The position numbers and the translations under genes were made by a program. The notes beneath the pieces are model-generated. The model had not been told where the DNA came from. It made no database searches and worked only from the letters and a program-made list of their open reading frames with translations. From contig CM046301.1 in the NCBI GenBank assembly GCA_025267735.1, forward strand, positions 67,847,872 to 67,911,871: a stretch of DNA of 64,000 bases. Direction: 5' to 3'. Shown here piece by piece: positions 18,858 to 43,455 of the stretch; position 1 is the stretch's first letter; each line of letters starts with the position of its first letter. This stretch comes from Mactra quadrangularis. Its lineage: Eukaryota; Mollusca; Bivalvia; Venerida; Mactridae.

Positions 18858-19008
18858 CTAGCGCTATTCTTCTATGTCTAGCAGACAATGTAGGTGTCTC
18901 TGGTTCAAGTATCCAAGTATTACAATCTAATTCTGATAATACATTCCAAAATTCCTGACATTCTTCCACACATACAACAAACTGTTTATACACATGGATT
19001 AAATCACA
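18858..19008 (-). CDS. FANCL: FANCL coding exon 7 (starts inside a tandem splice-site array)
   Basis: Encodes CDLIHVYKQFVVCVEECQEF then WNVLSELDCNTWILEPETP to RRIAL, matching vertebrate SSLISIYSQF...FWDVMDEIDEKTWVLEPE...RRIALG. Homology up to CDLIHVYKQF fixes the 3' splice site at CTTTCAG, immediately before 19008, rather than at a CAG at 18982-18984. The first 25 nt of the exon and its acceptor belong to the first unit of a nine-copy 37-bp array. Donor GTAGTG. Confidence 0.93.
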
Positions 19009-19316
19009 CTGAAAGTATAGGTTTATATACATGGATTAAATCACACTGAAAGTATAGGTTTATACACATGGATTAAATCACACTGAAAGTATAGGTTTAT
19101 ATACATGGATTAAATCACACTGAAAGTATAGGTTTATACACATGGATTAAATCACACTGAAAATATAGGTTTATATACATGGATTAAATCACACTGAAAG
19201 TATAGGTTTATATACATGGATTAAATCACACTGAAAGTATAGGTTTATATACATGGATTAAATCACACTGAAAGTATAGGTTTATATACATGGATTAAAT
19301 CACACTGAAAGTAGAG
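18984..19316 (-). repeat. nine tandem 37-bp copies of the FANCL exon 7 3' splice site plus exon start
   Basis: There are nine 37-bp units (333 bp) plus a partial tenth. On the gene strand each unit is CTATACTTTCAG, the intron end with AG, followed by 25 nt equal to the start of exon 7 (TGTGATTTAATCCATGTATA onward). Copies differ by only a few substitutions (T/C in the TATA(C/T)AC part, one GAAAAT, one GTAGAG). Only the unit nearest the gene body continues into real exon sequence. Because 37 is not a multiple of 3, using an upstream acceptor reads into TGA within the next unit. Confidence 0.95.
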
Positions 19317-19334
19317 GTTTATATGCATTTACTT

Positions 19335-19540
19335 CAGCTCTATTGTGAAACAAGTTCTTACAACTTAGATTAAATTCCCTTCGAGTCCGTTTCCTGGTCC
19401 CCCAGTACTGAGCTAGTAGAATAATGTTTCTTGCTCAAGGAAACAATGGGGTAGGTTTGGATGGGATTAGACTCCAAGCAGAGCTGGCTTTCCAATGATT
19501 ACCAGTCCAAAGTCTTAACCACTCAGCCACGCCCCCTCTA
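19335..19540 (-). mobile_element. tRNA-Ser/Leu-derived SINE, minus orientation
   Basis: On the minus strand the head reads GGGGGCGTGGCTGAGTGGTT followed by AAGACTTTGGACTGG, a class II tRNA-like A box, and then a body containing TTTCCTTGAGCAAGAAAC. It lies in a FANCL intron, directly beyond the 37-bp array. It is not a functional tRNA. Confidence 0.8.
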
Positions 19541-19975
19541 AGGAATAGGTATCTATCTAATTCAAGATATACATGTACATTGGAAATATAGGATACATAG
19601 GTGATTCTGGTAGAAGGAAAGTAATTCTGTAACAACAAGCACCAAAATTCCTAAAAATCTCTACAAAGGTTTGGAGGCAAGAAAAATTTACTTCAGTTCT
19701 TAAATGGCGATAATTATTTTTGTAGAACCAATATTATTAAACATGTTTAGTTTAGTGATAAAATGAAAATAAATTTCATGAATGCATCACATTTATAAGA
19801 TTTGACACATGATATCCCAAAGCCTTCAAAACCATGTTCAATGTAATTCTATCCCATAACGCATTAATAAAGCAAAACTAATTAATCTAATTTTTAATAA
19901 AAGCTATACATGCAAAGTGAAAATATCTCTTAATTGAAGGTGCACACAATATACTAGTAAATACATGTATATTAC

Positions 19976-40613: not shown

Positions 40614-40925
40614 GCCGCCCAACTAGCTCAGTTGGTAGCACGCAAGTCTACTGATGGAGGGGTCGTGGGTTTGATTCCCAGGTGGGGCATACTTTCATGG
40701 AGCTTGGTCATGATATAATTTCTACGGTCATTCTCCCTCATACCAATGATTTTTAATTATGTAGGGCAGTTGTCAGTCACTGACCAAAGTATGCGCTTAG
40801 TAGTTGGTTAACAGCTAAGTCCGGAGATTTAGCCTTTCCAGGAGGAGTGAGTAGGTTGACTGACCACCGTTATATGACATACAATGTGTTGCTACCGCCT
40901 TAAACCCAACAAAACGAACAAACAA
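40614..40925 (+). mobile_element. tRNA-derived SINE, family 1
   Basis: Well-preserved A box (CTAGCTCAGTTGGTAGCACG) and B-box region (GGTCGTGGGTTTGATTCCCA). The body matches 6251-6568, ending in AACAAAACGAACAAAC. No clear target duplication. It lies in GCH1 intron 1. Confidence 0.88.
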
Positions 40926-42660
40926 GCCTGTCAGACCTAGTCAAGCCCCTAACCAGCCAGTCATGCAATGATTGACTTATTCAAATCTTGAACATACTGA
41001 TTATAATAATCAGTCACTTTATCACTGATGGTCTATATTTTCCCTGAAAGTTGAATCTGTTATCTATCCATCATTATATATTGTTTGTTTTTAAGATAAC
41101 AAACCTCCTCAATTAATCCTATATATTTGTATACTGTCCTCTTAATAACTTTTATAATTAACTCGACAAATCTTGTGTTTTTTTAACAAATTGAACAATC
41201 TTGTTTCACTTGATAAATGAGATGTAGATTCTCTGTAATTCTGTTTTTATGTGACAGTTTTAGTGTATTCCCTTTCGTTAGGTCTGACGTCAATACAAGC
41301 ATAAGTGGCTGGCATACAGAATGTGTCGTAGAGATATTTAAGAGAGATTGTGTTCGTTGATTCCTATGAAAAAGTACTAAGAGAGCCGTAATCTAATTGT
41401 ATAATGTCGTCAGAAATGTTATACGCTGTTCTAGGCATTAGATTAACTTAACAAATAAACCATATTGTTCTCTAACAGAGTTGTCCATATTTATAGCTGA
41501 ATATTGCAATCAATAGTCATAATCACCAAATCAACTATACTGTGGCGATGATTTTTAGTTTTCAATGAAAATGGAAATCTGTACGTTAAGTGTGGGTGCT
41601 CACTTAGCGATGACTCTTCAGAATGGAGGAGAGAAAGTAGAGAGTTGTTATTTGAACGGGAATCAATGATTTTTACATTCTTTAGCTCTCAGTTCTTGTA
41701 TTGAATTAATTGACATTTTATAAAAGCTGATGATTCAATTGTTGTTTTAATGAATTGATGAAATGACTTGGTTTTTCATTTTAACTGTTCAATACATTGA
41801 TTTACATTATAGAATGATTCTAATAGAGTTCTTAATGTATCAAATAAATCAATGAAAATTAATAAAATACTTGCTAACTTGATATGGTTTCTATAAACTT
41901 CTAAACCTTTTGTTACAAATAAGATTCTTAGTGTTTGCTTTTCTGGTTAGAGATTTAGTGATCTTGTTAAAATCAGATCTTATGTATGCCATAGCTTTAC
42001 AATAGGGCTGCAACTATTCACTTAAAAGTTGATTTGATGTGATTTGATTTTTTTCTTCCAATGGATTCTATTTTTTTAGATTTGATTCATTGAAAAGTAT
42101 GCTCCATTCAAAGTGTACATCAAATAAATTATTTTTATTGTTGATAAAATAAAATAGTAACTGAACTTTTATAATTTGTCAATAAAGAAAATAAATTTAT
42201 TCTTTGTTTTTGTTTTGTGACTTAAGGAAATTTTTGTAGTTTAATAACAATGGTAAAAATGTTAAGCTTCACTTTAGAATGTTCCAAGAAGATAATGATA
42301 CCCTACCATATTAAGAAGAATTAAGTTTGAGAAAAAATGATGATGTCATCAGTTTGAAGATTTTTTTTTTAAATGTTCACATGAAGTTTTTCTGTTTGTA
42401 TTTGAAGTAATGTTGTTTTCTCCCATATTCTAGTCAACACAATGTTTTTTTTGTTTGAATAGATTTAATTAAGTTAATTAGGTTATGAGTTTACTGGCAG
42501 GCAAAATATAACTTTTTCATGTTTTTTTGTTTTGATTGCCTCTATTAATGATTCTTACAAAAAATATTTAAAAAGATTAATATGATAATGTAACACTGTA
42601 CTCAGAAATGCATGCTTTTAAATCTATGATGTATTTTAAATTAAGTTATTATTAGTAACA
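40926..42660. other. GCH1 intron 1, no feature seen
   Basis: AT-rich, with T-runs. No exon, RNA gene or bounded element recognised. Confidence 0.5.
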
Positions 42661-42665
42661 TAATG

Positions 42666-43455
42666 TTTTCTATTTATAGATGTATTAAATGATGCTATAT
42701 TTAGTACAAGACTTTTGTTTCTATTTATAGATGTATTAAATGATGCTATATTTAGTAACATGTTTTTGTTTCTATTTATAGATGTATTAAATGATGCTAT
42801 ATTTAGTATCATGTTTTAATTTCTATTTATAGATGTATTAAATGATGCTATATTTAGTATCATGTTTTTGTTTCTATTTATAGATGTATTAAATGATGCT
42901 ATATTTAGTATCATGTTTTTGTTTCTATTTATAGCATTTGGAACATCCTCGGCCATTCGCTACGAATAACCTCGGACATATTTAGACGCCATTTTGGAAA
43001 AACCGATGTTGAAGTAAACAAATACGCGATCGTTGAGGCGATGACAGAAGTTTCGTTTTTAGTCCGTAAATTTGAAATTACACATTTCAATGATACTGAT
43101 GAACAATATTGGTTCAATTTAAAACAAATAAATATGTTTAGACAAAGATCTGTGTGTATACTACAAGAACTATTTTGTGTAACTGTTACGTGCTTCGCCT
43201 CGCATAGGTAGTAAAATCACCTAAATCCAGTGAAGACCCCCCACGAATCCTTCCGAGATTATTCATTATGAAAGGTCGAGGGTGTTCCGAATGTATTTAT
43301 AGATGTATTAAATGATGCTATATTTAGTATCATGTTTTTGTTTCTATTTATAGATGTATTAAATGATGCTATATTTAGTATCATGTTTTTATTTCTGTTT
43401 ATAGATGTATTAAATGATGCTATATTTAGTAACATGTTTTTGTTTCTATTTATAG
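42666..43455 (+). repeat. nine tandem 51-bp-spaced copies of the GCH1 exon 2 3' splice site plus exon start
   Basis: TTTCTATTTATAG followed by ATGTATTAAATGATGCTATA... recurs with the acceptor G at 42679, 42730, 42781, 42832, 42883, 42934 (repeated at 43302 by a MITE target duplication), 43353, 43404 and 43455. Each unit repeats the last 28 nt of intron and first 23 nt of exon 2. Only the last copy continues into GATGAAGATCATGATG, the real exon. Because 51 is 17 codons and the unit has no in-frame stop, the three units nearest the exon form an open frame with it. Confidence 0.95.
42935..43293. mobile_element. MULE-type MITE (359 bp) inserted in the splice-site array, 9-bp target duplication
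   Basis: Ends match the 30321 copy: CATT(C/T)GGAACATCCTCGGCC and, inverted, CATTCGGAACACCCTCGACC. It is flanked by TATTTATAG at 42926-42934 and 43294-43302. That 9-mer is the end of the splice acceptor, so the insertion duplicated an acceptor core. Confidence 0.93.

Follow-up and report, generated by a model that had tools for sequence, protein, structure and literature searches.

Minisatellite-like duplications of intron/exon boundaries, the acceptor type included, are reported from amphioxus under the name of mirages (PMC3087553). They have been described in the amphioxus genes Adh3, BflGb6, BflGb9 and TnC, with similar repeats in PGBD5, and in BflGb6 the unit joins the 3' end of the intron to the 5' part of exon 2; two haplotypes have 6 and 3 units, and reverse transcription PCR suggested regular splicing (PMC3087553, PMC3902484). 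A human relative is the 37-bp variable number tandem repeat (VNTR) in intron 7 of F7, in which the first unit has the real splice site and oriented scanning is reported to use only the most upstream, exon-joined site (PMC6627357). Here we analysed a stretch of 64,000 nucleotides of the clam Mactra quadrangularis (C9:67847872-67911871 of a 979-Mb genome; hereafter the window), in which exon 7 of FANCL and exon 2 of GCH1 each begin with the last copy of a nine-copy tandem array spanning the splice acceptor. We consider it quite probable that the two arrays are mirages of a bivalve, i.e. minisatellites that arose by slippage or unequal exchange and are tolerated because their upstream copies become intron.

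The window has FANCL on its minus strand, between about 24.0 and 8.9 kb, and GCH1 on its plus strand, between about 34.9 and 59.1 kb. We checked the identity of the genes against Mactra antiquata, to whose proteins FANCL is 82% and GCH1 94% identical, in keeping with a mactrid-like clam as the source. FANCL exon 7 (18858..19008, minus strand, 151 nt, translated as CDLIHVYKQF...RRIAL, with the donor GT at 18857) was matched by tblastn with E 4.5e-13, the query being a human FANCL sequence. Its start belongs to an array of a 37-nt unit at 18984..19328 on the minus strand, with 9.3 copies and 97% matches according to Tandem Repeats Finder (TRF), the last copy being joined to the exon. The unit is made of 25 nt of exon and 12 nt of intron. 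Eight full units, each with 25 nt of exon-like sequence and 12 nt of intron ending in AG, lie at 19009..19304 on the same strand; units 1-8 have 0-1 mismatch to the consensus, and unit 9 at the outer edge has 10 mismatches in 37 positions and is alike only over its inner ~24 nt. All nine units end in AG, and the last one gives the real acceptor at 19009.

The joint of the FANCL array holds two related 12-mers, which we regard as the halves of a founder direct repeat: ATGTGTATAAAC in the exon (18984-18995, minus strand) and ATGCATATAAAC in the intronic flank, inside the edge unit (19317..19328, minus strand). They form an imperfect direct repeat, identical at 10 of the 12 positions, and are separated by 37 nt once the array is collapsed to one copy. 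The chimeric form ATGTATATAAAC is found in six of the eight units and the exon form in the other two. A 10/12 match to the exon 12-mer occurs at 2 of 6568 non-coding positions of the window. There is hence good sequence evidence for a joint of the kind that slippage or unequal exchange between two repeats would leave, with a strand switch inside the repeat. Replication slippage had been suggested before for these arrays, and the homology-driven duplication at the FANCL joint is as that idea predicted.

The acceptor of GCH1 exon 2 (43456..43565, plus strand, translation ending in GK, donor GT at 43566) is amplified in a comparable way. The exon matches GCH1 chains in the PDB with a best E of 5.7e-19, and it is also supported by tblastn and by the Mactra GCH1 protein (P0001). 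The unit here has 51 nt, 23 nt of exon and 28 nt of intron, and TRF placed it on the plus strand in two blocks, at 42667..42934 and at 43294..43478, the last copy of the second block being joined to the exon. The array contains nine exact copies of TTTATAGATGTATTAAATGATGC, split 5+4, with the exon parts starting at 42680, 42731, 42782, 42833, 42884, 43303, 43354, 43405 and 43456, and the last copy is the real acceptor. The copy tables and TRF thus bore out the unit make-up described earlier for both genes, 25+12 in FANCL and 23+28 in GCH1, together with the nine copies. A degraded tenth copy is likely present at the outer edge of the GCH1 array (42629..42679, plus strand). Its alignment score of 14 is reached by none of 1792 non-coding stretches of the window, where the maximum is 9, and its exon-like part alone is equalled or exceeded at 1 of 6568 non-coding positions.

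The two GCH1 blocks are separated by a 359-bp insertion (42935..43293, plus strand), which the initial annotation does not mention. It is flanked by a perfect 9-bp target-site duplication, TATTTATAG, at 42926..42934 on the left and 43294-43302 on the right (plus strand). The ends of the insertion are imperfect terminal inverted repeats, which emerged from a direct comparison and had escaped the repeat finder. The insertion is a dispersed repeat: a genome search with it gave 40 scored matches at 94-100% identity, itself included, of 3232 candidates. Since the element splits the array, it was inserted after the array had formed, at an acceptor copy.

The copies differ in what their use would do to the reading frame. 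All eight upstream FANCL acceptors would bring in stop codons, as the unit contains stops and its length of 37 nt does not divide by three. In GCH1 the five outer acceptors of the first block lead into the inserted element and meet stops, and the upstream acceptors of the second block (43405, 43354 and 43303) would add 17, 34 and 51 codons, in frame and stop-free. Since 51 nt correspond to exactly 17 codons, one may ask whether alternative splicing makes working use of the GCH1 array as a cassette for inserting 17-aa modules between exons 1 and 2. We consider this very unlikely, as the added residues (SIMFLFLFI) are a hydrophobic translation of intron, the outer acceptors run into the element and its stops, and the insert is present in none of six GCH1 relatives examined, although a predicted isoform of Mya arenaria GCH1 (X1, P0012) has a 28-aa insertion at the exact junction of the clam array. 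The Mactra antiquata FANCL and GCH1 proteins have no insertion at either array junction. The motif NDAIF occurs twice in 2 of 120 GCH1 relatives (P0005 and P0009), neither from a bivalve.

Both arrays agree with mirages in three respects: their tandem units each span the boundary and are part intron, part exon; the exon-joined copy is the authentic boundary encoding a conserved protein, as judged by homology rather than transcripts; and an edge copy lies outside the homogenised region, namely FANCL unit 9 and the degraded outer copy of GCH1. The accounts of mirages likewise describe an authentic copy at the exon and boundary copies that escape homogenisation (PMC3087553, PMC3902484). The clam arrays differ in belonging to a mollusc and not a cephalochordate, in their units of 37 and 51 nt (those reported for mirages measure 10 to 160 bp), in having nine copies, one array being interrupted by a dispersed element, and in a core, CTATTTATAG, that GCH1 has in common with two genes described below. 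The F7 VNTR resembles them as a variable tandem repeat with an exon-joined real site, but lies on the donor side. In human CBS the 844ins68 allele duplicates a splice site at the junction of intron 7 and exon 8 (PMC4479818); as reported it is a single 68-bp duplication, and the clam has arrays. TRF-defined internal tandem repeats at exon-intron boundaries are reported to alter splicing in human duplicated genes, where they lead to novel introns (PMC2812944), and novel Drosophila introns also come from tandem duplication (PMC2891723); the clam differs from both in that an old acceptor is amplified. The initial annotation had proposed that splice-acceptor minisatellites could be an undescribed class of repeat. 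That novelty is lost, as the published description of amphioxus mirages gives the same definition (PMC3087553, PMC3902484) and the F7 VNTR provides a 37-bp donor-side case (PMC6627357). Among the papers listed in the literature searches none on boundary arrays in bivalves was seen. The clam arrays thus belong to a known kind, in a phylum that is new for it as far as these searches show.

Tandem arrays are error-prone in assembly, and collapse or expansion of repeats could in principle have produced the two arrays. An artefact of this sort is hardly credible here, given that the copies carry distinct variants, that one array holds an element with a clean target-site duplication and that the contig is 70.7 Mb long.

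Boundary-spanning units, the homology at the FANCL joint, diverged edges, the later insertion of an element and the frame consequences can all be read from the DNA itself, and they are consistent with the following course of events. Short direct repeats may have let slippage or unequal exchange produce a tandem duplication of a short stretch across the intron/exon boundary; the evidence for this is good in FANCL (the 12-nt imperfect repeat and the chimeric joint) and weaker in GCH1. The duplication would then have expanded and been homogenised as in any minisatellite. The array could persist since only the exon-joined copy must work, and the upstream copies would be intronic and removed with the intron. 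As the upstream FANCL copies and the five outer GCH1 copies give stop codons, splicing would normally have to reach the last copy. Each unit appears to have its own branch-point-like sequence and AG, so that the last unit might be a self-sufficient acceptor. A candidate branch point, TAGTAAC, lies at 43427..43433 (plus strand) in the unit feeding the real GCH1 acceptor, ~23 nt before the AG; we take it to be one from the general consensus, its function being presumed. TAGTATC stands at this place in five of the eight inner GCH1 units. The idea that TAGTAAC is kept selectively before the real acceptor was set aside, as two of the eight units have it, which is not significant.

Several points weigh against this explanation. 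At the GCH1 joint, perfect homology extends over only about 2 nt, as read by eye. None of the 17 donors in the window lies within an array, and the argument of tolerated retention predicts donor arrays too. The use of the last acceptor in FANCL and GCH1 is deduced from homology and not from transcripts, and the copy numbers come from one assembly.

A search of the genome with the GCH1 array indicated that acceptor-linked arrays recur. We followed the best 8 of its 26 rows, and four other places emerged from weak matches. In one of them (L005) a ~27-nt unit is present in 13 copies, and the last TTTCTATTTATAG is the acceptor of a PRPF8 exon (E 2.4e-27 against human Prp8). In another (L006) 14 copies of a ~28-nt unit end at the acceptor of the last exon of a Spaetzle-like gene; the exon matches Spaetzle with E 2.9e-5 and 25 bits, just below the cut-off of 27. 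The units of these two arrays contain only about 3-5 nt of exon, so they are acceptor-terminal and do not reach deep into the exon. The remaining two are arrays of a 20-nt unit beside splice sites: in L008 the array stops about 55 nt ahead of the acceptor of an exon matching PDS5 (E 6e-8), and in L009 it begins about 27 nt past the donor of an exon matching a helicase (E 1e-17). All five arrays, that of GCH1 and these four, have the orientation of the gene in which they lie. As the four places were retrieved with an acceptor array, they show recurrence and not frequency.

To the initial annotation, two such arrays in 25 kb had suggested a genome-wide process rather than chance, with exon starts favoured for slippage or break repair, or arrays kept for their acceptors. 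TRF assigns 20% of the window to arrays with a period of at least 10, and 6.9% to those under 1 kb; in 200 kb of sampled genome the cover is 10.4% for all arrays and 5.9% for those under 1 kb. The window has 16 acceptors with homology-supported boundaries, after removal of one doubtful exon, and 17 donors. By circular shift, two or more of the 16 acceptors fall in arrays under 1 kb with P = 0.29; restricted to arrays of 150-1000 bp the test gives P = 0.23, and with arrays of every size P = 0.78. The doubtful exon, a putative FANCL exon 'F4a' at 22269, was dropped as the Mactra protein lacks it; with 17 acceptors P had been 0.32. The FANCL and GCH1 arrays exceed chance as repeats, but the overlap of arrays with acceptors does not.

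We also made an independent census of dynein heavy-chain exons, collected by a PF12774 search (101 rows, of which 74 rows in 14 stretches were examined), in which a simple score, rather than transcripts, served to assign 73 acceptors and 70 donors. None of the 73 acceptors lies in an array (95% upper bound 4%), and one of the 70 donors does, in a 14-nt x 2.2 repeat. Among the 33 arrays in the 200 kb of sampled genome none was recognised at an acceptor, as judged by eye from the flanks. One of them (L011, 4381-4711) has the acceptor-like TTTTTCCAG with no exon visible, and two others (L015, 9425-9729, 30 nt x 10; L024, 1721-2048, 33 nt x 10) look like coding repeats inside exons. A 50-nt x 4 array at 31188-31387 of the window, whose units each hold GGTAAGT or a close variant, was rejected as a donor array, as it lies between FANCL and GCH1 and has stops in the one frame tried.

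We then counted tandem pairs of motifs in the genome, using the same pattern reversed as the control; only periods of about 18-27 nt are detectable in this way. The canonical acceptor TTTTTCAG gave 125 pairs against 116 reversed, i.e. no genome-wide excess. The donor AGGTAAGT gave 284 against 141, but two long arrays, one on C8 and one on C11, account for 74 of the 100 rows listed. A candidate acceptor array with at least seven copies of TTTTTCAG in six listed pairs, a tandem of TTTTTCAG...TATAG at about 26 nt, was seen at C9:15427386-15427548. A process specific to acceptors would draw on the four genes with acceptor-terminal arrays (FANCL, GCH1, PRPF8 and Spaetzle-like) and on the window, where two acceptors and none of 17 donors are in arrays. 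However, PRPF8 and the Spaetzle-like gene were found with an acceptor-array query and are a biased sample, and the window overlap within chance, the dynein acceptors, the sampled arrays judged by eye and the TTTTTCAG pairs all speak against such a process, which we regard as improbable. Arrays over acceptors are uncommon, and in view of the circular-shift P values and the dynein acceptors two of them in one window need no special process. The shared architecture of the FANCL and GCH1 arrays is nevertheless real and recurs, with no statement of rate, at PRPF8 and the Spaetzle-like gene; what does not stand is a single motif-specific cause, as CTATTTATAG occurs in the GCH1, PRPF8 and Spaetzle-like arrays and the FANCL array has no CTAW4TAG site.

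By these counts it is the arrays of CTAW4TAG that are in excess in the genome, and not those of the single canonical acceptor examined. Tandem pairs of CTATTTATAG number 488 against 1 reversed, those of CTATATTTAG 172 against 23, and period-20 pairs of CTATTTATAG 243 against 1. The GCH1 array has 17 CTAW4TAG sites (one of them TTATTATTAG), mostly spaced by 25/26 nt, each unit having one CTATTTATAG and one CTATATTTAG 25/26 nt apart. The spacing is 26-27 nt in the PRPF8 array and 28-30 nt in the Spaetzle array, and 49-58 nt where a copy is mutated. If tandem sites at about 20-30 nt define a class, the arrays of GCH1, PRPF8 and the Spaetzle-like gene belong to it and that of FANCL does not. These three arrays could thus be members of a dispersed CTAW4TAG minisatellite class, spread or selected for the motif as a MEF2-type site or an RNA signal, a motif that directly before an exon would also act as its acceptor; FANCL would be unrelated. 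The MEF2 consensus is given as (C/T)TA(A/T)4TA(G/A) (PMC11234010), and CTAW4TAG fits it by letters only. We hold this as a tentative alternative, which the pair excesses, the GCH1 unit with its regular spacing and the sense orientation of all five arrays would favour. Against it, the GCH1 CTATATTTAG is created where exon joins intron AG and can be a duplication accident, the four other arrays were picked out for their likeness to GCH1, which makes their orientation a biased sample, and single CTATTTATAG sites are common too (6 against 0 reversed in 210 kb). For the GCH1 array as a mirage, the motif is a likely second factor, since CTATTTATAG, its acceptor, is a form of a motif that occurs as tandem arrays at many sites of the genome.

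The CTATTTATAG arrays are unevenly distributed. Among the 100 rows listed, the CTATTTATAG pairs fall in 31 loci, 6 on C1, 4 on C2 and 21 on C3 (30.9 Mb in all), of which the rows listed cover the initial 15 Mb; the share of C3 among the matches listed, 21/31, has a binomial P of 1e-11 in a comparison of C1, C2 and that part of C3. For the period-20 pairs, 100 of the 243 were listed, covering C1-C4 and the first 18 Mb of C5, with 5 on C1, 3 on C2, 70 on C3, 4 on C4 and 18 on C5, so that C5 is intermediate in density among the matches listed. The CTATATTTAG loci among the matches listed are spread differently (C3 3/22, C7 7/22), and the chromosome bias is therefore not the same for the two motifs. 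We speculate, with little confidence, that dispersed CTAW4TAG minisatellites, dense on C3, are ready-made sense-strand 3' splice acceptors, which at GCH1, PRPF8 and the Spaetzle-like gene took over as the acceptor of the exon. If true, a tandem repeat family would supply splice sites to conserved genes.

The window has further repeats. A minisatellite with a 26-nt unit x 244 (50198-56660) occupies the GCH1 intron ahead of exon 5, and a TATGC pentamer x 153 with 99% matches (37518-38280) lies in GCH1 intron 1. A ~155-bp tandem family occurs at two places, 11978-14206 and 63046-63982, one of them within a FANCL intron.

The arrays extend the amphioxus phenomenon to a mollusc, and to conserved genes (FANCL, GCH1 and PRPF8), with the boundary arrays tied to one repeat motif in three of the four cases. 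FANCL places eight near-identical decoy acceptors before the real one, and the use of any decoy would lead to stops, so the gene offers a natural test of how the spliceosome chooses its acceptor.

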